A DNA stretch of 64,000 nucleotides, from assembly GCA_018712345.1 (NCBI GenBank), contig DVHG01000008.1, positions 124,001 to 188,000 of the forward strand, in the 5' to 3' direction. The first letter of the stretch is position 1, and each line of letters starts with the position of its first letter. The DNA comes from Candidatus Onthovicinus excrementipullorum. GTDB taxonomy: Bacteria; Bacillota; Clostridia; Oscillospirales; Acutalibacteraceae. This document shows positions 36,734 to 52,520 of this stretch, piece by piece. The notes under the pieces were generated by a model, which worked only from the letters and a program-made list of their open reading frames with translations, did no database searches and had not been told where the DNA came from. A program made the position numbers and the translations under genes.

Positions 36734-36763
36734 AAAACCGCCTTGACGCAGCGCGGTTTTTAT
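36731..36763 (+). terminator. Terminator after hflX
   Basis: AAAACCGC pairs with GCGGTTTT (36734-36760) around an 11-nt loop, ending in TTTTTAT. Confidence 0.75.
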
Positions 36764-36790
36764 GATATATTAATTAGGCTGATTCGACTC

Positions 36791-36866: not shown

Positions 36867-36899
36867 TTTCTTGTTCGTCTCGGCTGACAAACTGAATAC

Positions 36900-36985
36900 G
36901 GGAGAGTTCCAGAGCGGTCAAATGGAACAGACTGTAAATCTGTCGTCTTTCGGCTTCGGTGGTTCGAATCCACCCTCTCCCACCA
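36900..36985 (+). tRNA. tRNA-Tyr (GTA anticodon)
   Basis: An 86-nt class II tRNA with encoded CCA and a long variable arm. Acceptor GGGAGAG pairs with CTCTCCC, discriminator A; anticodon stem ACAGA/TCTGT with loop CTGTAAA gives GTA; variable stem CGTCTTTCGGCTTCG; T arm GGTGGTTCGAATCCACC. Confidence 0.95.
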
Positions 36986-36988
36986 CGT

Positions 36989-37025
36989 CGGAGCAAAGTT
37001 CGCTTTGCTCCGGCTTATTTTTTGT
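36989..37025 (+). terminator. Terminator after tRNA-Tyr
   Basis: CGGAGCAAAG-TTCG-CTTTGCTCCG (36989-37012), followed by GCTTATTTTTTG. A strong tetraloop terminator for the tRNA transcript. Confidence 0.9.
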
Positions 37026-37373
37026 CTACGACAGAAAATAAGCCATACGCCCGCTTCCTTGCTCCTCCTCTTTCGCAAAAAGTCACGCTCGGCTCACCTG
37101 TTCGGTTGTAAACGCCCTCACGACGGCTCGCTGTCGCTACCAATTTTTTGCGAGTTCGAGAGTTCAACTCCCACCGCCGAAATGCCGGAAATATCTTTTT
37201 TATGCGGCTTAGACACACCTGCGGTCGGCAATTCGTAATGAGTTGCCGGCTGTTTTTCATTGCGCAGCTCGACCGCAAGCGGGATCTATTTTGTATCGCC
37301 CTTACAAAAAACGACAAGTTTCGGCTTGTCGTTTTTTATTTGATGCGCTACAATGTAGATATGTAGTGAGATG
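37026..37373. other. Non-coding spacer with two stem-loops, left edge of AT-rich segment
   Basis: No supported gene. CGGCAA pairs with TTGCCG (37226-37248), followed by GCTGTTTTT; this copy shares 20 of 22 bases with a terminator at 39399-39420. A second hairpin, ACGACAAG-TTTCGG-CTTGTCGT (37310-37335 region), is flanked by A6 and T6 and can terminate both strands. From here the DNA becomes more AT-rich up to about 52.2 kb. Confidence 0.6.
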
Positions 37374-37502
37374 ATGCTATATAGAATAGATCATTATACG
37401 GAAAGTGAAATAAACCCTTTAACCGATCGGATTTATGACGATAGTTGGATTGTGTATTGCTTAACAGAATCCGATGATTATCAAACGATGGTTGGAAATT
37501 GA
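37374..37502 (+). CDS. Small hypothetical protein (42 residues)
   Basis: Starts MLYRIDHYTESEINPLTDR and ends QTMVGN. It has no clear ribosome site. It lies just left of another small frame in a different register (37543-37758). The amino acid make-up looks protein-like, but the pair could be pieces of one broken gene. No family recognised. Confidence 0.3.
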   Translation: MLYRIDHYTESEINPLTDRIYDDSWIVYCLTESDDYQTMVGN

Positions 37503-37542
37503 TATTTTGTTTTCCTAATACATCAATAAAGAACCGTTTAGA

Positions 37543-37758
37543 ATGGCAGATTTAAAAAATATGATGAAAAGAACGCATAAAGTGCCTGCGGTTGCGCTTG
37601 ATAATGCTGCCTTGGAAATAGTCGATGATAAATATAGAATTTTGTTTTTGGAGAACGGCGCAACTGCGCAAAAATGTTTCTGGAAAAACGGGAAATATGT
37701 TGTTAAAAATATAGAAACAAGAGAATTCAGAGTTATCAAAGAGTTGATAACCAAATAA
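37543..37758 (+). CDS. Small hypothetical protein (71 residues)
   Basis: Starts MADLKNMMKRTHKVPAVA. It is charged, soluble-looking, with FLENGATAQKCFWKNGKY near the middle and FRVIKELITK at the end. No good ribosome site precedes the ATG, and the frame remains open for several codons upstream (YINKEPFR) back to a stop, so it may be the C-terminal part of a broken gene. No family recognised. It ends 40 nt before the Nudix gene. Confidence 0.4.
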   Translation: MADLKNMMKRTHKVPAVALDNAALEIVDDKYRILFLENGATAQKCFWKNGKYVVKNIETREFRVIKELITK

Positions 37759-37798
37759 TACTTCGTCACGTTGTTTGTTACATCCAACGGAGGTTGCC

Positions 37799-38251
37799 AT
37801 GAGTTATATAAGTGATATGAGACGATATATCGGTCATGCACCCATGCTCTGTGTTGGTGCAACTGTCGCTGTTCTAAATGATAATAAGATTCTTTTAAAT
37901 TTGCGTTCCGATACGCATACATGGGGGATCCCCGGAGGTGCCGCTGAACTCGGTGAAACACTTGAGGATACTGCCGCAAGAGAATTAAAAGAGGAGACCA
38001 ATTTACTCGCAAACAGCTTTATTCTTTTGAATGTGTTTTCAGGCGGGAATTTTTATTTTAAATATCCGAACGGTGATGAATTATATTCAGTAATTGCACT
38101 GTATCTTGCAAACGGCGTGACGGGCAATTTGAAAATCAATGATGGAGAGAGCCTTGAACTGAAATATTTCAGTAGGGATGAACTGCCCAAGCTTGAAAGC
38201 AGGGCAAAAGTTCTTATTGATTATTTGTGCGAAAAAAGATATATTTTGTAG
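37799..38251 (+). CDS. Nudix hydrolase
   Basis: A 150-residue pyrophosphohydrolase. The Nudix box is complete: GGAAELGETLEDTAARELKE followed by ETNLL (G-x5-E-x7-RE-x2-EE pattern). WGIPGG precedes it, and YLANGVTGNLKINDGESLEL gives the usual later strands. Start ATG 37799 has GGAGG 6 nt upstream. Substrate unknown; the type resembles small-molecule or nucleotide clean-up Nudix enzymes. Codon use is more AT-rich than in genes to the left. Confidence 0.9.
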   Translation: MSYISDMRRYIGHAPMLCVGATVAVLNDNKILLNLRSDTHTWGIPGGAAELGETLEDTAARELKEETNLLANSFILLNVFSGGNFYFKYPNGDELYSVIALYLANGVTGNLKINDGESLELKYFSRDELPKLESRAKVLIDYLCEKRYIL

Positions 38252-38304
38252 GCACGTGTTTATGAACTCTGTGCGGTATTGAAAGTGCCCGTCCCTTACA
38301 ACAG

Positions 38305-38334
38305 AATCCGATAGTTTCGGCATATCGGATTTTC
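38305..38334 (+). terminator. Terminator after the Nudix gene
   Basis: AATCCGATA (38305-38313) pairs with TATCGGATT (38323-38331) around a 9-nt loop; a short TTT follows. Confidence 0.6.
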
Positions 38335-38399
38335 GTGTATGCTGACGCTTTATGAGGAACAGCCGGTTTAAAATCGTTTCTTGTGAGAGGATGAACCTG

Positions 38400-39353
38400 A
38401 TGCACAATGAAATCTTTCGGGATCAGGAATATATCCATCGGTTAAAAGATGCCATATATGAGCAATACGGGATTGCTGCGGCCAAAATAACGCCTGCCAA
38501 TCGCGGATATTACGGTGAGACCTGGAAAGTGCATGCAGATTCCGGCCTCTATTTTTTAAAAATGGATTATCTGCCCTTTCATCAGAAAAAATTCCAGCAA
38601 AGTCTGTCCGTCATAGAGTATCTGTGTGAAAACGGGATCGATTTTGTCGGAAGGATTATCAAAACCCAGGGAAATGAGCTCTATTCTAATTTTGATACTG
38701 CGGTCATGGGGTTGTTCGAATGGGTGGATGGCAAGAATGTGGAGACGGATCAAACCAAGAGCACGGAATATCAGATGCTGTGTAAAATATATCTATTGAC
38801 AAGGCCGGGGCTGGCAATCCCCACCGCAGTGTTTTCCGATGATGCGGCCATACGTTTTTACCAGCAGTGGGAGAAGCTCAAATCAGCCCCCAAAGCGGAG
38901 GCCGACTGTGCGGTACTCGCGATCTTTGAGCGCTTCAAAGAAGAGATAGCCCACTGCGCTTCACGGCTTTCAAAGTTCGCAGGGGATTGCCGGGAAGATT
39001 CTGGTGATTTTTACCTGACCCACGGCGACGCGGGAGGCAATTTTTTTATTGCGCATGGGCGGAATTATATCCTGGACTGGGATGAAGTAATGTATGCCCC
39101 CCTTGAGCGCGATGCATGGGTGATGGGATGCTATGACTGGGCGCGCGAGCTGTTTCATGATACGCTCAAGGCCAACAAGATTCCTTATCAGCTGCGGCCG
39201 GAGCGGTTGGCCTTCTATTGTTACCATATGTATTTCTTTTATCTCAACGAATTTTTGATGGTTCATCCTATATGTGATAAAAGCCAAAGAATACAGGAAT
39301 ATTTTGAGAACGGATGGATTAAAAACAGGATAAAGTTCGCTGATACGATATAA
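38400..39353 (+). CDS. APH/choline-kinase-like phosphotransferase
   Basis: A 317-residue kinase-like protein. The nucleotide-binding half contains RGYYGETWKVHADSGLYFLK, with the ATP lysine in FLKMD. The catalytic loop reads LTHGDAGGNFF, close to the APH pattern HGDxxxxN, and the metal aspartate is in YILDWDEV. The substrate cannot be told; aminoglycosides, spectinomycin and sugar or amino alcohols are all possible for this fold. I start at ATG 38400 because GAGAGG is 9 nt upstream, while the ATG at 38391 directly touches it. It is followed by a terminator. Confidence 0.82.
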   Translation: MHNEIFRDQEYIHRLKDAIYEQYGIAAAKITPANRGYYGETWKVHADSGLYFLKMDYLPFHQKKFQQSLSVIEYLCENGIDFVGRIIKTQGNELYSNFDTAVMGLFEWVDGKNVETDQTKSTEYQMLCKIYLLTRPGLAIPTAVFSDDAAIRFYQQWEKLKSAPKAEADCAVLAIFERFKEEIAHCASRLSKFAGDCREDSGDFYLTHGDAGGNFFIAHGRNYILDWDEVMYAPLERDAWVMGCYDWARELFHDTLKANKIPYQLRPERLAFYCYHMYFFYLNEFLMVHPICDKSQRIQEYFENGWIKNRIKFADTI

Positions 39354-39401
39354 TAGATTTTATTTTTCCTATTGAACATCCAGCGTATCCGTCTCTTTCA
39401 C

Positions 39402-39437
39402 ACCTGCGGTGAGCAATTCGCGCGCCGCAGGTTTTTT
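39402..39437 (+). terminator. Terminator after the phosphotransferase
   Basis: ACCTGCGG (39402-39409) pairs with CCGCAGGT (39425-39432), followed by six T. The left arm lies in a 22-bp sequence repeated at 37214-37235. Confidence 0.85.
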
Positions 39438-39535
39438 GATAGTAAAACTCAGCATTTAATAAAGCAGCATCATCGATCACATTCCGCTTGATATTCCTGC
39501 GGATCTGAGAGCTTTTTATACAACTCCCATCTTTG

Positions 39536-39600
39536 GGAGATCGAACCACTGGTTCAATTTATCTCCTAAGTTTGACAAGATCCGAGTTGGGATATATAAT
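39536..39600 (+). promoter_or_regulatory. Perfect consensus promoter of the first two-component system
   Basis: TTGACA (39572-39577), 17 nt, TATAAT (39595-39600): an exact sigma-A consensus. Just upstream is the perfect palindrome GAACCA-C-TGGTTC (39543-39555), nested inside GGAGAT/ATCTCC (39536-39566), a possible operator. Confidence 0.8.
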
Positions 39601-39670
39601 AAAACCCATTCTCAAACACCTACATTGGTTTGCCAAAAATACACCTTTGATTTTAAGGTCGGTGGAGCAC

Positions 39671-40381
39671 TTGAACCAGCATATTCTTATAGCCGAAGAT
39701 GACGAAGATATTGTTGAGCTGCTTTCTCTTTATCTAACCGGTGAAGGATTCACGGTTTTTCCTGCAGAAAATGGATTTCAGGCACTGGAATTGATAGAAT
39801 CTGTGAAGGTTGATATCGCAATCCTTGATATTATGATGCCGGAAATGAGCGGGTACGATTTGCTGAAGAAAATCCGGGAAAATTACAACTTTCCTGTGAT
39901 TATTTTGTCCGCCAAGGATCTGGATACGGATAGGATCCTCGGCCTGAATCTAGGGGCGGACGCTTATCTTACCAAACCGTTTAATCCGCTGGAAGTTGTC
40001 GCTTATGTTAAATCCGCGTTACGCCGCTACTATGAATTGGGGAGCAATCACGGTTCCGAAAAAATCACCGCAGAAAAGTCCTCACTAACTGTAGGCGAAT
40101 TGCAGCTGGATTTGTTTAAATTCATCCTGCGTAAAAGGGGACGGGTTATTCCACTTACCCCAACAGAGTTGAAAATTGTGCTGAAATTGATGCAGTCCCC
40201 CGGTCGGGTATACACAAAGGCACAGCTTTATGGGTGTATTGGCGGGGAGTTATATGAAAGTGATGACAACACCATGATGGTCCACATCTCCAATATCCGC
40301 GCAAAGATTGAGGATGATCCCTCAAATCCGCGATATATTAAAACTGTGAGAGGATTGGGATATAAAATTGAAGAAAATTAG
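39671..40381 (+). CDS. OmpR-family response regulator
   Basis: A 236-residue regulator. The receiver domain opens with HILIAEDDEDIVELL; the phospho-acceptor Asp lies in DIAILDIMMPEMSG, followed by the conserved Thr/Ser position in VIILSAKD and the Lys in YLTKPFNPLEV. The C-terminal winged helix has LTPTELKIVLKLMQSPGRVYTKAQL and the family ending YIKTVRGLGYKIEEN. No ATG fits the N terminus; TTG 39671 or GTG 39662 are the likely starts. Cotranscribed with the kinase, and directly upstream of the dlt-like operon, which it may control. Confidence 0.93.
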   Translation: MNQHILIAEDDEDIVELLSLYLTGEGFTVFPAENGFQALELIESVKVDIAILDIMMPEMSGYDLLKKIRENYNFPVIILSAKDLDTDRILGLNLGADAYLTKPFNPLEVVAYVKSALRRYYELGSNHGSEKITAEKSSLTVGELQLDLFKFILRKRGRVIPLTPTELKIVLKLMQSPGRVYTKAQLYGCIGGELYESDDNTMMVHISNIRAKIEDDPSNPRYIKTVRGLGYKIEEN

Positions 40382-41963
40382 TCAAGTACGGAAAAGCCTG
40401 CTTTTTTCCTGTGCAGTATATTTTGTGTGCTACACACTGATTATTATATTGGTCTATTTTGCGTTTGCTCATCTTGCAAATCAAAAAATGAGCGAATCAG
40501 TTTTTACAATAGAAGACTTATTCTCCTATGAAGAGGATCTGATTCAAGAGAATTACGCCAGGATTCCCGCCAAAAATTCCAAAACCTCCGCCATCATTAT
40601 TTTTGATAAAAACGGACGAATCCAATATGCGAGCAATCAAACCATTAGCGAAAAGATCTTTTTTCAAGATTTGGACATGGTCGAGGATTACAATTCCAGT
40701 AGCTTTTTCGAGGTTCTTCAAAATGCTGAAACGGACGGTTCTGTTGCATACACTGTATATTTAAACAGTTATGATGGCGACGATATGATCCCTACAATTT
40801 TGGATTACTGCGTTCTGGATGAAGAATACAGAATTGTGGAAGGCGGATTATTTCCCGACCAAGAGTTTTTGACACAAAGGGAATTCGAATTATTAAGCGG
40901 AATATCCGGGTTTAATGGAACCCTTGTAAAACATGTCTACCAAAATAAGGACGGGGAAGAAAGGACCCTTGTTTTTCTTTCCACCAGTATAAGCGACAAA
41001 CAGTATAGCCGAATCGTAGAATCTGTAAACATGATTTGGTTTGTGGGAATTCTGAGTGTCTTTTTAATAATAATTGTGTTCGCAGTATTATTTTTCAGAA
41101 GAATTAAAAAAAGAATTTCTCCTTTAAATCAGACCATTGCATCTTATCAAAAAGGGAAAGCGGCGGAGATTGATCCCTCAGCGGTTCCTTCAGAATTTCG
41201 TGAGACGGTTTGTAGCTTTAAAAACTTGGTAGAGGAACTGGAGCGTACGCGGGAAGAGAAAGAAACACTATACAAGGAAAAGCAAAAGCTAATTGTGGAC
41301 ATCTCTCATGATTTAAAAACGCCACTGACGGTTATCCAGGGGTATGCAAAGGCACTTTCTGAGCGGAGGGTGCCTGCCGAAAAACAGGACGCCTATATTG
41401 AATCTATTTTTAACAAATCAACGCTGGCCGCAGATATGGTCAACGACCTTTTCATGTTCACACAGATGGAGCATCCAAACTATCAGCTGCATTTGGAGAA
41501 AACAGACTTTAATGAGTTTGTAAAAAGCTTTTTTGCGGAAAAATATATGGAAATTGCAGAGGATGGATTTCAAATTTCTGCAGATATGGAAGACTTCCCG
41601 ATCACGCTTATGCTTGACAGAAGGTTGATGCGCCGCCTTCTTGAAAATCTGTTGAGCAATGCCATAAAGTACAACAATAAAGGAACAACTATATATATTG
41701 CAATGAAGAAAAGGGATTCAGATGCTGTCATGACCATTGCCGATGACGGCGTTGGTATTCCCGAGGGGATTGCCCAAAACTTGTTCCGGCCTTTTGTCAC
41801 CGGCAACCATGCGCGGACAACCGGAAAAGGCACGGGCCTTGGATTGTCCATTGCACAGAGGATCGTACAGATGCATCATGGCAGCATGGAGCTTGTCAGA
41901 CCTCCCCATAAGCCGTACCATACTGAGTTTTGTATACGGATCCCCATTCAAGAAAACGAATAA
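40368..41963 (+). CDS. Membrane sensor histidine kinase
   Basis: A 531-residue kinase starting at TTG 40368, overlapping the regulator gene by 14 nt. TM1 is about residues 10-34, then an extracytoplasmic domain of about 185 residues, TM2 about 222-245, a short HAMP-like link, HisKA with His314 in IVDISHDLKTPLTVIQGY, and an ATPase domain with NLLSNAIKYN, DDGVGIP and GKGTGLGLSIAQ. The large outside domain suggests direct sensing of a ligand or of wall state. Its partner regulator is encoded just before. Confidence 0.93.
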   Translation: MKKISQVRKSLLFSCAVYFVCYTLIIILVYFAFAHLANQKMSESVFTIEDLFSYEEDLIQENYARIPAKNSKTSAIIIFDKNGRIQYASNQTISEKIFFQDLDMVEDYNSSSFFEVLQNAETDGSVAYTVYLNSYDGDDMIPTILDYCVLDEEYRIVEGGLFPDQEFLTQREFELLSGISGFNGTLVKHVYQNKDGEERTLVFLSTSISDKQYSRIVESVNMIWFVGILSVFLIIIVFAVLFFRRIKKRISPLNQTIASYQKGKAAEIDPSAVPSEFRETVCSFKNLVEELERTREEKETLYKEKQKLIVDISHDLKTPLTVIQGYAKALSERRVPAEKQDAYIESIFNKSTLAADMVNDLFMFTQMEHPNYQLHLEKTDFNEFVKSFFAEKYMEIAEDGFQISADMEDFPITLMLDRRLMRRLLENLLSNAIKYNNKGTTIYIAMKKRDSDAVMTIADDGVGIPEGIAQNLFRPFVTGNHARTTGKGTGLGLSIAQRIVQMHHGSMELVRPPHKPYHTEFCIRIPIQENE

Positions 41964-41972
41964 AACACCGAC

Positions 41973-42006
41973 AAAACCGGAGCCCAATTGGGCTCCGGTT
42001 TTTCCT
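41973..42006 (+). terminator. Terminator after the first two-component system
   Basis: AAAACCGGAGCCC-AATT-GGGCTCCGGTTTTT (41973-42003), a very strong hairpin separating the regulator genes from the dlt-like operon. Confidence 0.92.
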
Positions 42007-42050
42007 TTAGAAACATTAAGGTTGCCTGAAGATTGGATAAAGCTTTGCCC

Positions 42051-42083
42051 ATTATACTTAAATCATGCCCTGCAGCATGATTT
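42051..42083 (+). promoter_or_regulatory. Possible promoter and inverted repeat before the dlt-like operon
   Basis: A -10-like TATACT lies near 42053, with no good -35 at standard spacing, as expected for an activated promoter. Immediately downstream is the perfect inverted repeat AAATCATG-CCCTGCAG-CATGATTT (42060-42083), either an operator or a leader hairpin, about 40 nt before the first gene. Confidence 0.4.
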
Positions 42084-42122
42084 ATCGATAGGGTTCAGTT
42101 TTAGGATTTTCAGGTGATTAAA

Positions 42123-43634
42123 ATGAAAAATGTATTAGAATACCTTGAAAAGAGTGCAAGTTCTTTTCCCAATAAGGTAGCTGCAGAAGATGAAAATGGC
42201 GCCTGCACTTTTCAAGAATTACAAAAATCCTGTATGCGCATCGGGTCTGGAATAATCGAAAAATTTGATAGGGGCACCCCTGTAGCAGTTTTTATGGATA
42301 AAAGTATCGCATCGCTGAGCGCATTCTTAGGGATTGTTTATGCCGGTGGTTTTTATGTGCACCTAAGCCCGGAGCTGCCGGCCGCAAGGCTCAGACAAAT
42401 ACAAAGCATCCTACAGGCTGCATATATTATTACCGATCGGAAACACCGCGCAGATGCACAGAAAATTTTCCCCTCAGCCACCGTCCTGCTGGTAGAGGAA
42501 ATACGTTCCGGCCCCATCCGGAAAGCTTCCTTGGACAGCATCCGCCGCCGCATGATTGATACGGATCCGCTCTATGCTATTTTCACCTCCGGCTCAACAG
42601 GTGTGCCAAAAGGGGTTGTAGTCAGCCATCGTTGCGTCATTGATTTCATTGATACGTTTACAGCGCTCTTCCAGATCAGGAGGACGGATGTAATCGGCAA
42701 TCAGGCGCCTTTTGATTTTGACGTTTCCGTCAAAGACATTTATTCCGCCCTTAAAACAGGGGCCACGCTGTCCATCATTCCCAAACAGCTTTTTTCTCGC
42801 CCGAAGGACTTGCTGGACTGGCTTTGTGACCACAAAATCACGACAATGATCTGGGCGGTTTCCGCGCTCTGTCTTATCAGCACCTTCCATGGGCTGGATT
42901 ACAGGCAACCGAATGCGGTGCGTCAGATCCTTTTCAGCGGCGAAGTTATGCCAATAAAGCATTTGCAGATATGGATGGAACGCCTGCCAAAAGCACAGTT
43001 CGTCAACTTGTACGGTCCTACGGAAATCACCTGTAATTGCACCTATCACATTTTGAAAAGAGAGAACAATTACCACGAGGGAATTCCCATTGGACAGGCT
43101 TTCCCCAATAAGGAGGTCTTCCTGCTGGGTTCAGAAGATGAGAGAATATGCAAGCCCGGCGTGGAGGGAGAGATTTGTGTCCGTGGGACCGCCCTTGCGC
43201 TTGGCTATTACGGGGCCCCGGAACAGACAGCAGCGGTATTTGTTCAGAATCCTCTCAACCGGCACTATCCGGACCTCATTTATCGGACAGGCGATATCGG
43301 GAAATACACAGACAGCGGAGATCTGCTTTTCTGTGGACGCAAAGATTTTCAAATCAAACATATGGGCCATCGCATTGAGTTGGAAGAAATCGAAAGGGCA
43401 GTCGCCAATTTGCCTGACATAGAGCGCTGCTGTTGTGTCTTTGATGAACAGAGGCAAAAGCTATACGGCTTCTATACCGGCAGCGTGGATAAAAAGGAAC
43501 TCCACAGGCAGCTCAGAACCCAACTTCCCATTTACATGGTACCGGGAGCGCTTTATCATCTGACGGAATTTCCATTGAGCAAAAACGGTAAAGTGGACAG
43601 AAAACATTTGCTTGAAAGGCGGAGTCATAAGTGA
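42123..43634 (+). CDS. DltA-like amino acid adenylating enzyme (carrier protein ligase)
   Basis: A 503-residue stand-alone adenylation enzyme. Core motifs in order: the P-loop-like IFTSGSTGVPKGVVVSH (about 152-168), FDFDVSVKDIYSALKTGATL, the A5 motif VNLYGPTEITCNC, the A7 YRTGDIGKY, GRKDFQIKHMGHRIELEEIE (A8), and the catalytic Lys in KNGKVDRKHLL (A10). It resembles DltA and NRPS A domains; it should activate a free amino or dicarboxylic acid and load the carrier protein encoded at 44827. ATG 42123 has AGGTGAT upstream. Substrate not readable by eye. First gene of five. Confidence 0.88.
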   Translation: MKNVLEYLEKSASSFPNKVAAEDENGACTFQELQKSCMRIGSGIIEKFDRGTPVAVFMDKSIASLSAFLGIVYAGGFYVHLSPELPAARLRQIQSILQAAYIITDRKHRADAQKIFPSATVLLVEEIRSGPIRKASLDSIRRRMIDTDPLYAIFTSGSTGVPKGVVVSHRCVIDFIDTFTALFQIRRTDVIGNQAPFDFDVSVKDIYSALKTGATLSIIPKQLFSRPKDLLDWLCDHKITTMIWAVSALCLISTFHGLDYRQPNAVRQILFSGEVMPIKHLQIWMERLPKAQFVNLYGPTEITCNCTYHILKRENNYHEGIPIGQAFPNKEVFLLGSEDERICKPGVEGEICVRGTALALGYYGAPEQTAAVFVQNPLNRHYPDLIYRTGDIGKYTDSGDLLFCGRKDFQIKHMGHRIELEEIERAVANLPDIERCCCVFDEQRQKLYGFYTGSVDKKELHRQLRTQLPIYMVPGALYHLTEFPLSKNGKVDRKHLLERRSHK

Positions 43635-44815
43635 ATGATATACAGCTGAAAAAATTGCTGGAAAAGAAAGAAACGCCCCTTTATGTATTTGACTTGGAGG
43701 AACTGCGGTGCCGGATTCAAACATTAAGGCGGGCCCTTCCCAACCACGTCAATCTCTGTTATGCAGTGAAGGCCAACACATTTATTTTAAAAGAAATAAG
43801 TGAACTGGTCGATCGATTTGAAATTTGTTCGCCCGGAGAACTCCATATCTGCCAAAGGCTGTGGCTTCCCCCCGAAAAATTTGTAATTTCCGGGGTTTAT
43901 AAGGAGCCGGCGCTTATGAGTCAGCTCATTGCCCAGGAGGGAAAAATTGGGGCCTATACGGTAGAATCCATGACACAGTTCACGATCCTGCATGAGGCGG
44001 CAGCAGCGGCAAAAAAGAGATTGCGCGTTTTTCTTCGGCTTACCAGCGGAAATCAGTTCGGCCTTGACAAAACAGAGATCGAGGGCATTCTTGCAGAGTA
44101 CCGGGATTCTTCCTGTTTGGATATCCGGGGGATTCAGTATTTTTCGGGTACCCAAAAAGCTTCAATCAAGAGGCTAAAAAGGGAACTTACCTCTGTAGAC
44201 CTTTTTTTGGAAACGCTGCATGGCAAATATGGCTATCAGGCCAAAGAACTGGAACTGGGCCCGGGGTTCCCGGTATCTTATTTCCAGGGGGAACCCTTTG
44301 ACGAGGAATCCTTCCTGTGGCAGTTTTCTCATCTTTTGAACGAAATGAAGTTCCGTGGGGCGATTACCATTGAGCTTGGCCGGAGTATTGCGGCGAGCTG
44401 CGGCAAATATTTTACCAAAATTGTCGATCTGAAGCGCAACCATTCCGAAAATTATGCTATCGTGGACGGAGGAATGCATCAACTGGTGTATTATGGTCAG
44501 TTTATGGCCATGAAGCATCCCTTTGTCAGGCACTGGTCCTCCCATACGGCCGCGGAAGCAAAAGAACAGGAATGGAATATCTGCGGTTCTTTATGTACGG
44601 CAAATGATATTCTCATGAAGAAGGTGCCATTGAAAAATTTGCAAATTGGAGACATTTTGCTATTCGAAAATACAGGCGCCTACTGCATCACGGAAGGGAT
44701 CTCGCTTTTTTTAAGCCGCGATCTTCCAGAAGTTGTGTTGATAAAAGAAAATGGAACCACACTCACGGTGCGGGATCATTTACAGACAGAAATTTTTAAT
44801 ACCCCATTATACTAA
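43631..44815 (+). CDS. Fold-III PLP-dependent decarboxylase (LysA/BtrK-like)
   Basis: A 394-residue alanine-racemase-fold decarboxylase. TPLYVFDLEEL opens the barrel, with the PLP lysine Lys47 in CYAVKANTF. GLDKTEIEGIL and a glycine-rich ELGPGFPVSYF phosphate-binding segment follow, and the second-domain active-site Cys322 is in CGSLCTANDIL, with GAYCITEG near the end. Diaminopimelate decarboxylase is the best known relative, but the setting between a carrier ligase and a carrier protein is that of BtrK, which decarboxylates a carrier-bound glutamate. GTG start overlaps the ligase stop. Confidence 0.88.
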   Translation: MNDIQLKKLLEKKETPLYVFDLEELRCRIQTLRRALPNHVNLCYAVKANTFILKEISELVDRFEICSPGELHICQRLWLPPEKFVISGVYKEPALMSQLIAQEGKIGAYTVESMTQFTILHEAAAAAKKRLRVFLRLTSGNQFGLDKTEIEGILAEYRDSSCLDIRGIQYFSGTQKASIKRLKRELTSVDLFLETLHGKYGYQAKELELGPGFPVSYFQGEPFDEESFLWQFSHLLNEMKFRGAITIELGRSIAASCGKYFTKIVDLKRNHSENYAIVDGGMHQLVYYGQFMAMKHPFVRHWSSHTAAEAKEQEWNICGSLCTANDILMKKVPLKNLQIGDILLFENTGAYCITEGISLFLSRDLPEVVLIKENGTTLTVRDHLQTEIFNTPLY

Positions 44816-44826
44816 AGGAGTAGATC

Positions 44827-45060
44827 ATGATGGAAAGACTCATTGAAATCCTGGAGGAAATCCAGCCGGAAGTGGACTATTTTACCTGCACTGACCTGAT
44901 TGACGGGCATCATTTAGACTCCCTCTCTATAATTTCTCTTGTTGCGGAGCTGGAGGAGGAGTTCGATATCACCATTCCTACGGTGGAAATCATTCCAGAT
45001 AATTTCAATTCCGCAAAAAATCTGTGGGCAATGATCGTGCGCTTGCAGGAGGAAGAGTAA
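44827..45060 (+). CDS. Acyl/peptidyl carrier protein
   Basis: A 77-residue acidic helical carrier. The phosphopantetheine site is Ser32 in HHLDSLSIISL, and the DxTIPTVEIIP segment forms the usual third-helix area. AAAGGAG precedes the ATG. DltC is the closest simple analogue by size and by the neighbouring MBOAT and ligase genes; BtrI is the analogue by the decarboxylase neighbour. A separate phosphopantetheinyl transferase must act on it from elsewhere. Confidence 0.93.
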   Translation: MMERLIEILEEIQPEVDYFTCTDLIDGHHLDSLSIISLVAELEEEFDITIPTVEIIPDNFNSAKNLWAMIVRLQEEE

Positions 45061-45061
45061 A

Positions 45062-46663
45062 ATGTTCTCCCTCTCCTCCTATTTTTCGATCGAATACTTG
45101 GTGATCCTGTTGCCAATATCAGTAGGGCTATATGCCGTTCTGCCGCAAAAACTCCGCCGGATGAGCCTTCTGCTCTCAAGTTATGTGTTTTTTTGGGCGG
45201 TCAGCGGAAAGCTGATCGCGTATTTATTGCTTTCGACGCTCTCTATCCACCATATCGGCATATGGCTGTCCAGCATTCAGGGGGATTGCGACCGCCTGAT
45301 GGAGTCATCTCCCAAAGCAAATCGAAAAGAAATAAAAAACCGATATTTAAAAAGGCAGCGCCTTGTTGTCACTTTCGCAGTAGCTTTACATATTGGGGTT
45401 CTGCTGGTACTAAAGTATACACCATTTTTTACGAGCAATCTCAACACCCTATTTCGTTTACTGAATCTCCCGCTGTCCTTGACGATCCCCTCCTTTGTAC
45501 TGCCAATCGGCATTTCTTTTTATACCATGCAGGCGGTGGCCTACATTTTTGACGTATATCGGAGAAAAATTCCTGCCGATCGCAATCTACTGCGTTTGGC
45601 ACTCTTTATGGGATTTTTCCCGCAAATCATGGAAGGCCCAATCTGCCGCTATTCTGAAACGGCTGAGCAGCTGTGGGCGGCCCCGATGCTGCGCTATCAG
45701 AACCTTACATTTGGCCTGCAAAGGATTCTTTTTGGACTCATGAAAAAGATCGTTATTGCAGACCGGCTGAACCTGCTGATAAAAAATATCTTTACTGGAT
45801 ATGAAAGCTACGATGGCTTTGTCATAGCCGTGGCAGCAGTATGTTATACCATCCAGCTTTACATGGATTTTTCCGGTGCCATGGATCTGGTTATCGGCAG
45901 CGGTCAGATTTTTGGAATGAAGCTGCCGGAAAATTTTCAGCGTCCTTTCTTTTCCAAAACGATATCCGAGTTCTGGAAAAGATGGCATATTACCCTGGGA
46001 GCATGGTTTAAGGACTATATCTTTTATCCGCTTTCCATGTCAAAGCCTTTAAAAAAGCTGACCGCCCGTGCAAGGAAACGGCTGGGCAATCACTTTGGGC
46101 CCCTTCTATCTGGGGCTATCGCGCTGTTTTGTGTCTGGCTCTGCAACGGCCTTTGGCATGGGGCAGGCTGGAAGTATATTTTTTTTGGAATGTACCATTT
46201 TGCATTAATTCTGGCGGGAAGCATAGTTGAACCGCTGGTTGTACAGGTTACAAAAAAACTGCATATTCAAAGAAGCAGCTTGCCTTACCGCTGCATCCAG
46301 ATTGTCCGCACCGCTATTTTGGTATGTATTGGCGAACTTTTTTTCCGTGCCCATGGACTCAGGGCCGGACTTACCATGTTCAAAAGGATTTTTACGCACT
46401 TTTCACTGGACGCTGTTCAGGACCGGTCTATTTTTACCGTTGGGATGGATAAGCACGACTGCCTGATCATATCAATTGCGCTGATTCTTATTTTTATAAT
46501 CAGTGTTTTAAAAGAACGCAATGTTCCAATCCGGGAGCGGATTGCCTCCAAAAATGCAGTGGTTCGATTTGCAGCGTATTACGCACTGATTCTGTCCATT
46601 GTTATTTTTGGCGCTTATGGTACAGGTTACGTTCCAGTTGATCCTATTTACGCAGGATTTTAA
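45062..46663 (+). CDS. MBOAT O-acyltransferase (DltB-like)
   Basis: A 533-residue polytopic membrane protein. MBOAT landmarks: LPIGISFYTMQAVAYIFDVYR, GFFPQIMEGPICRYSE, the segment ISEFWKRWHITLGAWFKDYI with His309, and the catalytic His366 in CNGLWHGAGWKYIFFG. Like DltB or the alginate acetylase AlgI, it would take an acyl group from the carrier on the inner face and pass it outward. It begins one base after the carrier stop. It is longer than DltB (about 400), closer to AlgI/PatA-type sizes. Confidence 0.92.
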   Translation: MFSLSSYFSIEYLVILLPISVGLYAVLPQKLRRMSLLLSSYVFFWAVSGKLIAYLLLSTLSIHHIGIWLSSIQGDCDRLMESSPKANRKEIKNRYLKRQRLVVTFAVALHIGVLLVLKYTPFFTSNLNTLFRLLNLPLSLTIPSFVLPIGISFYTMQAVAYIFDVYRRKIPADRNLLRLALFMGFFPQIMEGPICRYSETAEQLWAAPMLRYQNLTFGLQRILFGLMKKIVIADRLNLLIKNIFTGYESYDGFVIAVAAVCYTIQLYMDFSGAMDLVIGSGQIFGMKLPENFQRPFFSKTISEFWKRWHITLGAWFKDYIFYPLSMSKPLKKLTARARKRLGNHFGPLLSGAIALFCVWLCNGLWHGAGWKYIFFGMYHFALILAGSIVEPLVVQVTKKLHIQRSSLPYRCIQIVRTAILVCIGELFFRAHGLRAGLTMFKRIFTHFSLDAVQDRSIFTVGMDKHDCLIISIALILIFIISVLKERNVPIRERIASKNAVVRFAAYYALILSIVIFGAYGTGYVPVDPIYAGF

Positions 46664-46674
46664 GGAGTCAAATT

Positions 46675-47640
46675 ATGATCTATGTAAAAAGAATGCTGTC
46701 TTTTGTGATGTTCTCTGTAGTCCTCGCCGCTCTTCTTCTGGCAGCCTCTCTTGTATTTTATCCAAAAAATAATATGTCCGAATTTGGCATGGAAGAAGCC
46801 CAGGCAAACGGTATCCTTGGAGAAAAGCAAAACACCATTGACGTCCTTGTGTTAGGGGACAGCGAGTCATACTGCTCAATCACCCCTATGCAGATCTGGG
46901 AAGAAACCGGATATACCGCCTATGTGTGTGGTACCAGCGCCCAGCCGCTCAATTACAGCCTGGTTATGCTACATCGCGCTTTTGAAAAACAAAAACCTAA
47001 AATTGTAATTTTGGAAACAAACGCGATTTACAGAAAAATTTCATCGGGTCAGGCGTTAAAAAACAAACTTACCAACTACTTTTCCATATTTCAATATCAC
47101 AATCGATGGAAATCGCTCGGCTGGCACGATTTTTTTGGAAAAATAGAATTCACATGGACAGATGACTATAAAGGTTATAAGTACAATACCACGGTCTCCC
47201 CAAGTATAAATACAGATTATATGAAACAAACAGAAACGATTGCGACGATTCCGACCTTGAATGTCCAGTATGTTCATAAAATTAAAAAGTATTGCGATGA
47301 CAATGGAAGCCAGCTGGTCTTATTGAGCACACCGAGCACCGTAAACTGGAATTACGCGCGTCATAATGGCATTCAGAATTTGGCCAGTGAGATCGGATGC
47401 AGCTATATTGACCTGAATTTAATGAATGATCAGATACAAATTGATTGGAGCATGGATACACGCGATAAGGGGGATCATTTAAACTACTCTGGTGCCGTAA
47501 AAGTAACCCATTTTATTTCAGAATATCTTAAAGAGACGGGATTGCTGACAGATCACCGGGTAGATCCTGAATATGCAAAATGGAATGATTCCTTCAAGAA
47601 ATATGAGTTCGTTGTTGGCAAGGTTCGTGCGAAAAAATAA
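46675..47640 (+). CDS. Membrane-anchored SGNH-like acyltransferase (DltD-like role)
   Basis: A 321-residue protein with one N-terminal membrane helix (about 8-28) and an outside domain. The nucleophile block is VLVLGDSESYCS with Ser63, and the terminal catalytic pair is Asp267-His268 in DKGDHLNYSGA. KIVILETNAIYR is in the expected middle position. This is the SGNH/DUF1574-like fold used by DltD, AlgJ and PatB partners of MBOAT proteins to put the acyl group on the outer polymer. It follows the MBOAT gene by 11 nt with AAGGAG and ends the operon. Confidence 0.85.
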   Translation: MIYVKRMLSFVMFSVVLAALLLAASLVFYPKNNMSEFGMEEAQANGILGEKQNTIDVLVLGDSESYCSITPMQIWEETGYTAYVCGTSAQPLNYSLVMLHRAFEKQKPKIVILETNAIYRKISSGQALKNKLTNYFSIFQYHNRWKSLGWHDFFGKIEFTWTDDYKGYKYNTTVSPSINTDYMKQTETIATIPTLNVQYVHKIKKYCDDNGSQLVLLSTPSTVNWNYARHNGIQNLASEIGCSYIDLNLMNDQIQIDWSMDTRDKGDHLNYSGAVKVTHFISEYLKETGLLTDHRVDPEYAKWNDSFKKYEFVVGKVRAKK

Positions 47641-47943
47641 AGTGGGATCAATGCCATAGTTCAAAATGGGGGCCACGATCCACACTTTTGACGAGTATGA
47701 TCCGGAACGGCCCGACATTGCCCCGGATGCGGATTTTGAAAAAACTATTTTTTACCCGGGAGGAGGAATATTGGATATTAAAAGGTGGGACGAAAGGCTT
47801 CCTGCTGCATCAAAAAATCAACAGTCTCCGCATATACCTTTAAAAATATAGACGGCACAGTGTAGCTTTTTGTTGAATGGAAAATGGACAACTACATATA
47901 CGGCGGAATGAGGCCGAATTATTACATATTTATAAGAGCATAG
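47641..47943 (+). pseudogene. Decayed fragment of a C-terminal domain seen in BlaR1-like and related Firmicutes proteins
   Basis: Pieces of one domain appear in order but in different frames. FDEYDPERPDIAPDADFEK and TIFYPGGG are in frame with 47666. TKGFLLHQ follows in another frame around 47780. SAYTFKNIDGTV is then followed by an in-frame TAG and LFVEWKMDNYIYGGMRPNYY to about 47943. I recall the pattern (DEFDP...LFxEWKSGDYxYxGMKPxYYV) from a domain at the end of regulatory and secreted Firmicutes proteins; its name is uncertain. Two frameshifts and a stop make it non-functional. No start or N-terminal part is present, so it is a relic of a longer gene. Confidence 0.6.
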
Positions 47944-48061
47944 AGGATGCAGGCTCACCGCCCTTTTAACAAGACCTCACCGCGAAATGAGATCTTTTAT
48001 GATTCAGAGCCTTGTGCAGAGAATTGCTCCGCTCCTGTTTTCTCCACTAAGGCTTGGTCTT

Positions 48062-48564: not shown

Positions 48565-49458
48565 TTATATTTCCGGATTGTTATTCTTCAGCCTGTTGAT
48601 CTGTCTCGTACTACGGACCACCATATAAGCGCCCATCCCTACCACAATGGCACAGACAATTCCGCCGGTAGTGCCCAACATGGTCTGGCGGAAGAGCGGC
48701 GCGGTGCTTCCGTTGTCAAATTGAATCAGCATAGCGGTTTCCAGCGACAGCATGGAGACCAAGGCCGCCGCCAGATTGACGGTTTTTGCCGCAGATATCA
48801 CCGGACTGTTAAATTTGCAGTACCTTACGACATTGATCACTGCCATAATCGTGATATAAAACGTGTACAGTGCCATAGCATAAATCAGGGAGCCCGCATA
48901 CTCAAACCCTCTGTTTTCATGAAGCACCAGAATTACCACACCGGCCAGTGCCATATTCATCATGATTAAAATCGCCCCGCACAGCCGGCAGCGTTTAAAT
49001 TCAGCTGTTTTATCCGCACCAAAGCCGCTTTTGTGGGCAAACCGCACCAGCAAAAAGCGCATGACTGATAAAAAAATATAGTAGGCCGCCAATGTCCCAA
49101 ACCATACGGAGTGGTAATAGATACCGGAGAATCCGTTTACTCCTGCGTACAGCAGGTTGATCGCCAGGGAAAGATAAAGGGATATGCGCAGCTTGAACGG
49201 GAGATCCTCCAAATAGCGGCGCGTATACGGATTCTGGCGAAGCCACTGCTTTCCTTTCCGTATAACGGGAACGAAATTGGCGCAGACAATGGTCAGGGAA
49301 TACGCAGAGACTACATAGGACACATACGCCACAGGGCTGTTTTCCCCGGCAATGAGGAACGCATAGGCCAGCAGTCCGGCCCCAATCGGTATACTCAAAA
49401 TCACAACTGTCGTTCCTGGGAACAGGAGCCGGTACAGGATTTTTTTAAACTTCTCCAT
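48565..49458 (-). CDS. Multi-spanning membrane protein of unknown function
   Basis: A 297-residue protein with about eight hydrophobic helices, and no motif I recognise. Short loops contain CRLCGAIL and a basic QWLRQNPYTRRYLEDLPFK loop. Its ATG overlaps the kinase stop by 14 nt, so it is translated with the two-component system. It could be the sensor partner of the kinase, which has almost no outside domain of its own, or its effector (inference). Confidence 0.8.
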   Translation of the reverse strand: MEKFKKILYRLLFPGTTVVILSIPIGAGLLAYAFLIAGENSPVAYVSYVVSAYSLTIVCANFVPVIRKGKQWLRQNPYTRRYLEDLPFKLRISLYLSLAINLLYAGVNGFSGIYYHSVWFGTLAAYYIFLSVMRFLLVRFAHKSGFGADKTAEFKRCRLCGAILIMMNMALAGVVILVLHENRGFEYAGSLIYAMALYTFYITIMAVINVVRYCKFNSPVISAAKTVNLAAALVSMLSLETAMLIQFDNGSTAPLFRQTMLGTTGGIVCAIVVGMGAYMVVRSTRQINRLKNNNPEI

Positions 49459-50542
49459 CTCTTTTTCTCCTGATCTTCACTGTGAACGTGCTGCCCTTCC
49501 CCACCTCGCTGCTGACGGAGATATCCCCGCCTACAATGTCGATCACACGCTTGACCAGCGCCAGACCGAGGCCATTGCCCTGCGCCGCATGAGAGGTATC
49601 CCCCTGATAAAACTTTTCAAAAATATGCGCGCCCACCTCCGGCGGGATTCCGCAGCCGGTGTCTGTTACCTGCACAACAGCGAATTCCCCCTCCGTTTTC
49701 AAAGAAAGAGTCACTTTTCCGTGTGGCTGCGTAAACTTGACAGCATTGGAAAACAGGTTGTTCCAGACCAGTGAAAGCAGCTCCGCATCGGCATCCACCT
49801 GCACGTCATCTTCCACGTCCGTTTCAATTTCCAAATCTTTCTCTTCCCAGGCGTTTTCAAAGGCGAGCAGGCATTCGCACAGCTGTTCCCCCAAATCGTA
49901 TGGCTCCACCTTCGGATAAATCTGCTGATTTTCCAGTTTGTTCAGCTTCAGGATATTGGTAATCAGATCGGCCAGCCGCCGCGAAGCATTTGTGATGCAC
50001 TTGGCGTATTCCAGCCGTTTTTCCTCCGGCAAATCCGGCTGCTGGAGCATGGTGCCGTAATTCTGAATGACCGCCAGCGGCGTTTTCAACTCGTGAGACA
50101 CATTGGCGATGAAATCTGTCCGCAACGTCTCCGTCCCGGAAAGCTCCTGTGCCATTTGGTTGAAGTAATCCGCAATTACATCAAACCCGCTCATACTTCC
50201 CAGGCCATGCAGCGGAGGGATCCGCACCGAAAAATCCCCTTTTGTGATCTGATCTGCCGCCTTCACAATTTTCCGCACCGGACGATCTACCATGAATCTC
50301 CGCCGGATACCGTCAACCACAGTACACAGCAGGCTCAGCAGAATTACATTCAGAAAGGTCACCTTGGCAGCCTTTTCCACATAGTCGTGAGACAGAACCA
50401 GCCCTGTTGTGCGTGACATCATATTGAGGAACAGTACCATGCAGCAGGTGATAACAAAAGCCATCAGGAGAAAAAAGCTGAAATACCGCCGCAGGGCAAA
50501 CAGCCACCGAACACTTCTTTTGTGTTTTCCCTTCCCGTTCAT
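49445..50542 (-). CDS. Sensor histidine kinase with minimal outside loop
   Basis: A 365-residue kinase. TM1 is about 17-37 and TM2 about 55-78 with only about 20 residues between; HAMP follows with RPVRKIVKAADQITKGDFSV. HisKA has His150 in FIANVSHELKTPLAVIQNY; the ATPase domain has LVWNNLFSNAVKFT, DTGCGIP and GNGLGLALVKR. The short loop suggests intramembrane sensing or a membrane partner, perhaps the protein encoded just downstream. ATG overlaps the regulator stop by ATGA. Confidence 0.93.
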   Translation of the reverse strand: MNGKGKHKRSVRWLFALRRYFSFFLLMAFVITCCMVLFLNMMSRTTGLVLSHDYVEKAAKVTFLNVILLSLLCTVVDGIRRRFMVDRPVRKIVKAADQITKGDFSVRIPPLHGLGSMSGFDVIADYFNQMAQELSGTETLRTDFIANVSHELKTPLAVIQNYGTMLQQPDLPEEKRLEYAKCITNASRRLADLITNILKLNKLENQQIYPKVEPYDLGEQLCECLLAFENAWEEKDLEIETDVEDDVQVDADAELLSLVWNNLFSNAVKFTQPHGKVTLSLKTEGEFAVVQVTDTGCGIPPEVGAHIFEKFYQGDTSHAAQGNGLGLALVKRVIDIVGGDISVSSEVGKGSTFTVKIRRKRDGEV

Positions 50543-51213
50543 TTCAATACCGCCTTATAGCCCAGTCCATGGACTGTCACAATCTCAAAGTCGTCACAGC
50601 CGGAAAACTTATCCCGCAGCTTTGTCATGTACACATCCACCGTCCGGGGGCCGGAGGTAGAGGCGCTATCCCAAAATTCATCCATAAGCTGTGAGCGCGT
50701 AAAGGTCTTTTTCGGATAGGACAGCAGCTTGTAGATCAGGTTAAACTCTCGAACCGTCAGCGGGATTTCCTCATCATTTAAATAGGCGGTATGCTCCTCC
50801 GCATCCAGCGTCAGGCTGCCCACATTCAGCTTTTTGCTGGTGGCGATTTTGGCCCGCCGCAGCAGGGCCTCAATTCGTAAGAGAAGCTCGTCCAGATCAA
50901 TGGGTTTGACCATGTAATCGTCAATTCCCGCCCTAAATCCGCGCTGTTTGGACGCAAAATCATCCCTCGCGGTCATAAACAGGATGGGAATCTCCCGGTT
51001 CAATTCCCGGATCGTTTTGGCAAACTCAAAACCATCCACCCCCGGCATCATGATATCGGAAAGAATCAGATCAAAGAGGGTGCCGCCGTACATGGTGTCA
51101 AAGGCTTCATTGGCATTTAAACAGCCCACTGCCTCATAGCCGTTTTGGTTCAGATAGGCGCACACGGTCTTATTCAGCTCCCGATCGTCTTCTACTACTA
51201 ATATTTTAAACAT
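50539..51213 (-). CDS. OmpR-family response regulator
   Basis: A 224-residue regulator. Receiver: FKILVVEDDRELNKTV, phospho-Asp in LILSDIMMPGVDG, ILFMTARDD and the Lys in YMVKPIDLDELL. Effector winged helix: LTVREFNLIYKLLSYPKKTFTRSQL and the ending IVTVHGLGYKAVLK. I start at ATG 51213 (MFKILVV), with GGGCGGGA upstream; the longer frame adds a tail unlike the family. Direct repeats at 52177-52211 before the small membrane genes may be its binding site. Confidence 0.94.
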   Translation of the reverse strand: MFKILVVEDDRELNKTVCAYLNQNGYEAVGCLNANEAFDTMYGGTLFDLILSDIMMPGVDGFEFAKTIRELNREIPILFMTARDDFASKQRGFRAGIDDYMVKPIDLDELLLRIEALLRRAKIATSKKLNVGSLTLDAEEHTAYLNDEEIPLTVREFNLIYKLLSYPKKTFTRSQLMDEFWDSASTSGPRTVDVYMTKLRDKFSGCDDFEIVTVHGLGYKAVLK

Positions 51214-51304
51214 GAATCCCGCCCCCCACGCTTGTTTTATGATAGTATAACATGGAGTTGTTAAAGTTTTGTTTGTATTTAGGCTCTCTGCAGAAAAACA
51301 CACA

Positions 51305-52211: not shown

Positions 52212-52505
52212 CATTAAAAACACTGATTTTAAAATATGGAAAGATTTTAAGTTCTCTCCGCGATCCGTACGTACTGTTTTATGCAGTTACAGCGATTTTC
52301 GCACAGATTCACACTGTTAGCACCCCTCCCCATTTTCAGCGCATCCTATTTGTTTTGTTTTTAAAAGCAAATAAAATCCATATATTTCTTTTTAAAAGCG
52401 ATATTCCGCTGATTTTCATTGTCTATCACTGCACTTGGCGTTATAATTATCCACAAAGTATCAAGTAATTCTGTCAGATCATCATATAACATGCACAAAA
52501 ACAGA
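52212..52505. other. Non-coding spacer, right edge of the AT-rich segment
   Basis: About 290 AT-rich bases between the GMCM gene and the serine hydrolase gene. No supported gene and no strong promoter pair was found. Base composition returns to GC-rich at the hydrolase start. Confidence 0.5.
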
Positions 52506-52520
52506 TGGAGGGAAAACGAA

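Follow-up and report, generated by a model that had tools for sequence, protein, structure and literature searches.

A five-gene cassette of gut bacteria that may load, decarboxylate and export an omega-amino-acyl group to the cell envelope

Five adjacent plus-strand genes at positions 42123-47640 of a 64,000-nucleotide stretch of Candidatus Onthovicinus excrementipullorum (contig DVHG01000008.1, positions 124,001 to 188,000, forward strand; here called the window) encode an adenylating ligase, a fold-III pyridoxal 5'-phosphate (PLP) decarboxylase, a stand-alone carrier protein, a transferase of the membrane-bound O-acyltransferase (MBOAT) family and a membrane-anchored SGNH-fold protein. It is considered reasonably probable that they form a self-contained envelope-acylation system, in which a small acidic amino acid would be loaded onto the carrier, decarboxylated there and exported as an omega-amino-acyl ester. 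Comparison of sequences and of predicted folds was used to assign the five families and their catalytic residues, the conservation of the unit, the shuttle motif fused to the MBOAT protein and the presence of a separate LysA. The system is real, conserved and coherent, and is best filed with the MBOAT-SGNH acylation systems; its novelty is the make-up of the donor side and the predicted acyl group. An earlier reading of the same DNA (the original prediction) had joined Dlt-like export to carrier-bound decarboxylation, and the evidence favours that union with several refinements, the first being that the loaded carboxyl would be the side-chain one. Literature cited below by PMC identifier is represented by excerpts of each paper.

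The five-gene unit and its conservation

The ligase (42123-43634; 503 aa from an ATG; AMP-binding, 7.6e-64), the decarboxylase (43631-44815; Orn_Arg_deC_N, 6e-18), the carrier (44827-45060; 77 aa; PP-binding PF00550, 1.5e-5) and the MBOAT transferase (45062-46663; 533 aa; PF03062, 2e-15) all have Pfam matches, and the fifth product (46675-47640; 321 aa) was assigned from the SGNH fold of its AlphaFold model, which agrees with the families named in the original prediction. The genes form a tight unit in which all open reading frames (ORFs) are open; the ligase and decarboxylase genes overlap by 4 bases, gaps of 11, 1 and 11 bases follow, and a purine-rich stretch lies upstream of each of the five.

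Conservation was followed in 300 genomes of the window's family, its own genome included, using the decarboxylase as the query. There were 24 close matches at E < 1e-80, followed by a gap to E ~1e-21, beyond which the matches were LysA-length proteins with 23-29% identity to the decarboxylase. All five genes are present in 20 of the 23 close family relatives, and the remaining three loci stop at a contig edge. An initial scan of genome contigs with a single protein as query gave no match, and an alignment-based scan confirmed at least 568 stretches, the best 80 of which, a set biased to close relatives, were taken as named loci. Ligase and decarboxylase occur in 80/80 of these and all five genes in 75/80; the five incomplete loci (L065, L073, L094, L112 and L122) run out at a contig end, and L122 may truly be without a carrier. 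Eight named loci share their decarboxylase with one of the family loci, leaving 95 distinct loci, with the complete set in 88 and the other seven at contig ends. Homologous operons with all five genes, for which a search had been proposed, were found in these 88 loci.

Residue conservation was read from an alignment of 113 loci, with identical proteins removed and the window included (106 ligase, 102 decarboxylase, 104 MBOAT, 99 SGNH and 93 carrier rows). The residues first picked out in the window as catalytic are retained throughout the family: Lys47 of the decarboxylase is Lys in 102/102 rows and its Cys322 is Cys in 101/101 readable rows, the phosphopantetheine site of the carrier, Ser32, sits within a DSL-type motif in the alignment, His366 of the MBOAT protein, together with His309, is His in 103/103 readable rows, and Ser63 of the SGNH protein is Ser in 97/99 rows.

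The ligase and its predicted substrate

The ligase scores 335.6 bits against the general amino-acid adenylation model TIGR01733, above the cut-off of 317.4, and 292.2 bits against the DltA equivalog TIGR01734, below the cut-off of 559.85; no protein above the TIGR01734 cut-off was found in any of 24 cassette genomes. Judged by these scores, the ligase is not DltA. Its ten specificity letters, DVKILSLCNK, recur in 71 of the 106 ligase rows. Other ligases of the main clade vary mainly at the hydrophobic fourth, fifth and seventh letters, one having Leu as the second, and four rows that make up a second clade (clade 2; L052-L054 and L056) read IAR(G/C)(C/I)SQASK. At the position of GrsA 239, 101 of the 105 readable rows have Lys and the other four have Arg, and such a basic residue fits a second carboxylate on the substrate.

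One guide to this pocket is VinN, in which Asp230 (GrsA 235) holds the amino group of 3-methylaspartate, a bulkier residue occupies GrsA 236 and Ser299 lies at GrsA 301; in TycA selected for beta-Phe, Val was obtained at 236 every time (PMC11253843). A second source likewise gives Asp230 as the partner of the amino group, and Ser299 and Arg331 as those of the alpha-carboxyl (PMC7756342). Mapped by motif, the counterparts of Asp230, the bulky residue 231 and Ser299 are present as D203 in 101, V204 in 100 and S275 in all 105 of the readable rows; the four clade-2 ligases retain only the Ser of this set. The comparison of adenylation domains suggested in the original prediction has in this way separated the ligase from DltA, found a basic pocket residue in every readable row and matched three VinN positions, but it did not recover the loop and Arg331 of VinN, which are weighed further below.

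The decarboxylase and its separation from LysA

Eight decarboxylases of the family were aligned with BtrK, the LysA of A. aeolicus and seven LysA proteins encoded in the window's own genome or in related ones. Cys322 is followed by Thr or Ser in 101/101 readable rows of the family, like the CT of BtrK, whereas CE is found in 8/8 LysA rows. The R-x3-Y motif, present in 8/8 LysA rows, is absent from 8/8 family rows and from BtrK, in which a Gly-(Gln/Arg) stretch stands instead. GTQ is common to the family and BtrK where LysA has GSQ or ASQ; both also carry a non-Pro residue in the E-x-G-R motif, unlike LysA, and the window decarboxylase contains a YGQ.MAM stretch. In LysA, the Glu, Arg and Tyr of CE and R-x3-Y hold the far end of free diaminopimelate, and ornithine decarboxylase (ODC) likewise has an acidic residue after its catalytic Cys.

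A separate, better-scoring LysA is encoded in each of the 24 cassette genomes, above the cut-off of 297.9 bits in 17 of them and at 268-289 bits in the other seven. Because the LysA residues are missing and a separate LysA is present in 24/24 genomes, assignment of the cassette protein as a LysA paralogue or lysine-pathway enzyme was rejected. With its BtrK-like residues, a tethered, carrier-bound substrate appears the better reading. Among solved structures, BtrK is the best match for a clade-2 decarboxylase and among the best for that of the window, and BtrK itself acts on an acyl-carrier (PMC7756342).

Proposed reactions on the carrier

The substrate, the order of loading and decarboxylation, the product, the acceptor polymer and the benefit to the cell are proposed here from the above comparisons. 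The ligase would adenylate the side-chain carboxyl of a small acidic amino acid, the beta-carboxyl of aspartate being the likeliest choice and the gamma-carboxyl of glutamate the next, and hand the activated acid on to the carrier's phosphopantetheine arm. The PLP enzyme would then strip the free alpha-carboxyl on the carrier, giving an omega-amino-acyl thioester, either beta-alanyl or gamma-aminobutyryl (from gamma-aminobutyrate, GABA). Fold-III PLP decarboxylases need a free alpha-amino and a free alpha-carboxyl group on one carbon, so the carrier would have to hold the side-chain carboxyl. Thioesters and esters of GABA have a tendency to cyclise to a five-membered lactam, and in butirosin producers the GABA is capped. 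Since no capping enzyme is present in the five-gene unit, aspartate and beta-alanine are favoured. Both groups named in the original prediction, GABA and beta-alanine, are kept as candidates, with beta-alanyl the more plausible on what is a chemical argument and not a result.

Loading before decarboxylation is reported for VinN/VinO, where VinN takes 3-methylaspartate and not the decarboxylated 3-aminoisobutyrate (PMC11284099); deletion of BolN was not rescued by beta-alanine (PMC7756342), a result that fits the same order. The reverse order, in which the PLP enzyme would first act on a free amino acid (giving, for example, beta-alanine from Asp or GABA from Glu) before the ligase loads the product, with export alike, is considered unlikely. 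Many fold-III decarboxylases do work on free amino acids, and the solved matches of the window decarboxylase include LysA, ODC and lysine/ornithine decarboxylases; however, the basic pocket residue in 105/105 readable ligase rows suggests that the loaded substrate keeps a second carboxylate, the acidic residue that follows the catalytic Cys in 8/8 LysA rows is replaced by Thr or Ser in the family, BtrK, which shares features with the family, acts on an acyl-carrier (its PDB title; PMC7756342), and VinN does not take the decarboxylated acid (PMC11284099).

Transfer through the membrane

After loading and decarboxylation on the carrier, the MBOAT protein would carry the acyl group across the membrane and place it on Tyr530 at its own C-terminus, and the SGNH protein would accept it on Ser63 and transfer it to hydroxyls of an envelope polymer, which would leave a primary amine and a positive charge on the surface. 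The AlphaFold model of the MBOAT protein (pLDDT 83.9) has its best Protein Data Bank (PDB) matches in 6bug (E 2.3e-12) and the DltB structure 8jem (E 2.9e-12), with extra helices after the DltB-like core at 464-485 and 499-517. The tail reads [P/F]-x-Y-x-x-F in 95/95 complete C-termini, to which the tail counts were confined, with the Tyr and the final Phe in all of them. In the window it is the hexapeptide PIYAGF (46643-46660, plus strand; Tyr530 and Phe533), a counterpart of the FXYXXF of DltX and PatA. The cassette MBOAT protein thus appears to carry a fused shuttle tyrosine, for which an acyl-tyrosine role is proposed; the motif had been missed in the original prediction. DltB hands D-Ala to the tyrosine in the FXYXXF tail of DltX, PatA bears the same motif on its own C-terminus, and an acyl-tyrosine intermediate has been demonstrated for the PatA of C. 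jejuni (PMC12148441). In the window, no small ORF with FXYXXF, as expected of a separate DltX, was seen just before or after the operon; the rest of the genome was not searched for one.

For the SGNH-like protein, neither Pfam nor NCBIfam gave a match at E <= 0.001. Its model (mean pLDDT 89.2) has an SGNH hydrolase fold preceded by an N-terminal helix at 2-28, and its solved matches in the fold search are GDSL hydrolases and TesA-like proteins, among which the DltD of Enterococcus faecium stands at rank 24 (E 2.9e-5). His268 is His in 96/96 readable rows. The usual position of the SGNH acid, three residues before the His (residue 265), is mostly Lys, Arg, Gly or Ala in the family, and Asp264 or Asp267 is the more likely catalytic acid on alignment. 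Of the Asp267-His268 pair named originally, the His was upheld and the acid could be narrowed to these two residues and not to Asp267 itself.

Some loci have additional transferase genes. A second MBOAT-SGNH pair stands beside a single ligase, decarboxylase and carrier in five distinct loci (L038, L041, L042, L129 and L136), and L106 has one ligase-decarboxylase-carrier-MBOAT unit followed by four full-length SGNH-protein matches in a row, which suggests several acceptors. Such doubled pairs and runs fit a single acyl donor that supplies two or more acceptor enzymes, and the doubled pairs would be expected if the carrier is that donor.

A destination other than a wall polymer, such as a small molecule, a lipid or a secreted glycan, is held to be improbable. 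Across the 23 family loci the cassette shows no consistent link to any gene of polymer biosynthesis, and members of the MBOAT superfamily, as seen among the PDB matches, also acylate lipids and proteins; against this, an MBOAT protein, an SGNH protein and an acyl-shuttle tail form the combination described for bacterial envelope polymers (PMC12148441).

Two further observations were made in the genome of the window. A second MBOAT protein ending in the shuttle motif FLYFRF is encoded on contig C29 and is followed by a 492-aa protein with no NCBIfam match at E <= 1e-15 (L057:5087-6502 and L057:3597-5075); the two probably form an ordinary pair for O-acylation from acyl-CoA. The genome also encodes an MdoB/LtaS-like phosphoglycerol transferase (L161), which scores 137 bits against a cut-off of 574 and is a candidate backbone enzyme only.

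Relation to known systems

The cassette has in common with Dlt (DltA-DltC-DltB-DltX-DltD) an adenylating ligase, a stand-alone carrier, a DltB-fold MBOAT protein with a conserved His, a shuttle tyrosine and an SGNH-fold final transferase; it differs by its built-in PLP decarboxylase and by the fusion of the shuttle motif to the MBOAT protein, where that of Dlt is on the separate DltX. A plain Dlt operon was rejected because the ligase, the carrier (32.5 bits against the DltC equivalog NF003464, cut-off 68) and the MBOAT protein (164.3 bits against the DltB equivalog TIGR04091, cut-off 375, despite its DltB fold) all score under the curated Dlt cut-offs. An ordinary D-alanylation system with the PLP protein otherwise employed, for example as a racemase supplying a D-amino acid, is very improbable: the other four products do correspond to DltA, DltC, DltB and DltD and the PLP protein matches Ala_racemase_N at 1.6e-7, but this protein also shows a match to the C-terminal sheet domain found in decarboxylases, its Cys322 falls at a position shared by LysA and BtrK, the ligase reaches 292 of 560 bits for DltA with 0/24 genomes holding a protein above the cut-off, and no separate DltX was seen beside the operon.

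PatA/PatB peptidoglycan O-acetylation and other MBOAT-SGNH pairs share with the cassette a C-terminal shuttle hexapeptide on extra helices and a membrane-anchored SGNH partner (PMC12148441), and the cassette differs from them in the ligase and carrier that would supply the acyl group; the excerpts of that source describe other MBOAT/SGNH pathways as without a carrier protein. By its sequences the cassette unites the carrier of Dlt with the fused shuttle of the PatA type, and so joins a carrier-protein donor and an MBOAT-fused shuttle tyrosine, which are kept apart in the same excerpts.

On the donor side, VinN/VinL/VinO of vicenistatin and BolO/BolC/BolN of bolagladin likewise combine an adenylating enzyme, a stand-alone carrier and a PLP decarboxylase acting on a carrier-bound Asp-type acid, in the case of Bol as a proposal (PMC11284099, PMC7756342). 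These modules feed polyketide or peptide assembly lines, whereas the acyl group of the cassette would go to an MBOAT-SGNH exporter, and the cassette ligase is without the short loop and Arg331 of VinN. By analogy, in both adenylating enzyme and Asp-type substrates, the Vin and Bol modules are closer precedents than BtrJ/BtrI/BtrK of butirosin, the precedent put forward originally, with which the cassette has the BtrK-like features of its decarboxylase in common. In the butirosin pathway gamma-Glu is loaded by an ATP-grasp ligase, an unrelated enzyme, and the resulting GABA is capped; neither the ATP-grasp ligase nor the capping is found in the five-gene unit.

An AMP-forming ligase and a PLP decarboxylase also occur together in the exosortase A-associated pair (TIGR03098, TIGR03099), loci of which belong to the PEP-CTERM systems of Gram-negative bacteria. 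Both models match the cassette proteins, but under the cut-off (212 against 592 bits and 176 against 478 bits, respectively), and no match to the exosortase family PF09721 was found in the genome; an exosortase-type cluster was therefore rejected. No description of the five-gene operon was found in the open-access literature examined, most subscription journals and preprints being outside this coverage, and to that extent the original remark that no described system of such make-up was known still holds.

Several observations weigh against the proposed system or parts of it. The Arg331 of VinN is absent from the ligase, the position being N308 in 102 and S308 in 4 of the 106 rows, and so is the shortened beta13-beta14 loop of VinN, the cassette ligase having a loop of full length in the alignment to LgrA; with both missing, the ligase is by sequence no plain relative of VinN, and Lys207 is proposed as the residue that may take over the missing contact to the carboxylate. 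D203 is absent from clade 2, which may therefore use a different substrate. No characterised enzyme bearing the code DVKILSLCNK was found in the literature examined, and the excerpts of PMC7147772 and PMC12283262 contain no directly comparable ligase code. The best solved match of the window decarboxylase is the LysA of A. aeolicus (2p3e, 111.8 bits), with BtrK at 99.7 bits; the NCBIfam lysA (TIGR01048, 176.4 bits, cut-off 297.9) and PEP1 models tie at 176, both below cut-off; and BtrK did not group with the family as a clade in the tree, where it was a single row on a long branch inside the chosen outgroup. For the export side, the first residue of the tail motif is Pro in 89 of the 95 MBOAT tails and Phe in 6, the end of the MBOAT protein including Tyr530 is modelled with pLDDT < 50, the TM-scores of the SGNH fold over the query are 0.34-0.41 (DltD, at its rank of 24, has TM 0.40/0.35), and Ser63 is replaced by Cys in two rows. 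Finally, in L113 and L128, near kin of L122 that were counted among the 75 complete loci, the carrier gene lies on the opposite strand and the MBOAT (34-35%) and SGNH (24-26%) proteins are divergent.

D-alanylation is a well-known Gram-positive way to tune surface charge, autolysins and the response to host peptides. Since none of the 24 cassette genomes has a DltA above cut-off, the cassette may be the counterpart of D-alanylation in these bacteria. If the proposed export of an omega-amino-acyl ester is true, it would be a further route, beside D-alanylation and lysyl-lipid synthesis, to positive amines on the bacterial surface. The envelope of cultured members, among them Ruminococcus bromii and Catenibacillus scindens, is then predicted to bear a non-proteinogenic omega-amino acid, and the proposal gives a testable idea for other ligase/decarboxylase pairs of unassigned role, for example the exosortase-associated pair.

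Distribution and movement of the cassette

The distribution is patchy: 18 of 391 genomes matched the decarboxylase at E <= 1e-60 class-wide and 4 of 398 at E <= 1e-80 phylum-wide, the window's own genome being included in both counts. The named loci include Candidatus Heritagella, Faecousia, Agathobaculum, Ruminococcus bromii, Pseudoflavonifractor, Catenibacillus scindens, Acetobacterium wieringae, Traorella, Enorma, Eggerthellaceae and a record titled Streptococcus suis SSHP-D, so that Coriobacteria are among the carriers. Flanking genes are unrelated across the 23 family loci, the commonest neighbour family being found in 4 of them, and the cassette is therefore self-contained.

A tree of 88 rows places all 79 rows of the family on one side of a branch with support 100, and three Actinomycetota lie within this mostly Bacillota tree. 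The Streptococcus suis SSHP-D record stands beside a gut Clostridia bin and may be mislabelled or contaminated. Clade 2 has the gene order ligase, carrier, decarboxylase. A phage-borne unit was rejected, as no viral contig matched six strict peptide patterns of the ligase, which is a narrow test. That the cassette is a widespread, horizontally moving and as yet undescribed envelope-modification system of gut Bacillota and some Coriobacteria, making beta-alanyl esters (from an isoaspartyl-carrier) on a surface polymer, with a different omega-amino-acyl group in clade 2, is advanced tentatively, at somewhat short of an even chance.

Of the 18 class-wide matches, L149-L152 were obtained as short stretches that cover ligase, carrier and decarboxylase only. 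Another four of the 18, L153-L156, come from genomes of a single genus and encode a homologue of the decarboxylase with no ligase or carrier of the cassette type in the stretch examined; they look like a different system and were left out of the cassette counts. The L153 decarboxylase matches TIGR03099 at 406 bits (cut-off 478) and is adjoined by a thioesterase-like gene, so these loci may belong to a natural-product cluster in which one step is a decarboxylation on a carrier.

Regulation and genomic surroundings

Directly upstream of the cassette, on the plus strand, lie genes for a response regulator of the VanR/OmpR type (39533-40381; PF00072 and PF00486; the true start is probably further inside) and a sensor histidine kinase with a VanS/WalK-like core and an N-terminal sensor part of its own (40368-41963; PF02518 and PF00512). 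A sigma-70-type promoter-like site for the regulator, TTGACA-17-TATAAT (39572-39600, plus strand), agrees with the consensus at 12/12 positions and is a consensus match only. Close relatives of the regulator-kinase pair adjoin 7 of the 23 family copies of the cassette; a related kinase is directly upstream in 15 and divergent in 8 of the 80 named loci, and in 64 of these 80 the upstream sequence is longer than 2.8 kb. Two-component control is therefore no general feature of the cassette, the pair standing beside a minority of copies. The original suggestion that the pair senses wall stress is retained to the extent that control by envelope signals is plausible for copies with a VanR/VanS-like pair alongside.

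The G+C content of the cassette is 45.3%, against 58.0% in the rest of the window, which suggests recent arrival in this genome. Low G+C was rejected as a general trait of the cassette, as none of 22 relatives has a cassette more than 5 points below its flanks. The window has 44-46% G+C from about 36000 to 48000 and mostly 54-63% elsewhere, with tRNA-Thr and tRNA-Tyr genes (36791-36985) at the start of this stretch; integration bounded by the tRNA genes was rejected after a search for a flanking repeat gave none convincing. The same low-G+C stretch holds, on the plus strand, genes for a NUDIX hydrolase (37775-38251) and an APH/CotS-like phosphotransferase (38352-39353), neither of which was seen as a conserved cassette neighbour. 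Downstream of the cassette, an apparent second two-component system of kinase and regulator was noted by eye on the minus strand (49445-51303), beside small membrane proteins, and a serine-hydrolase-like protein is encoded on the plus strand at 52419-54146, with a weak match to 3-succinylated cholic acid synthase at 214 bits against a cut-off of 800.

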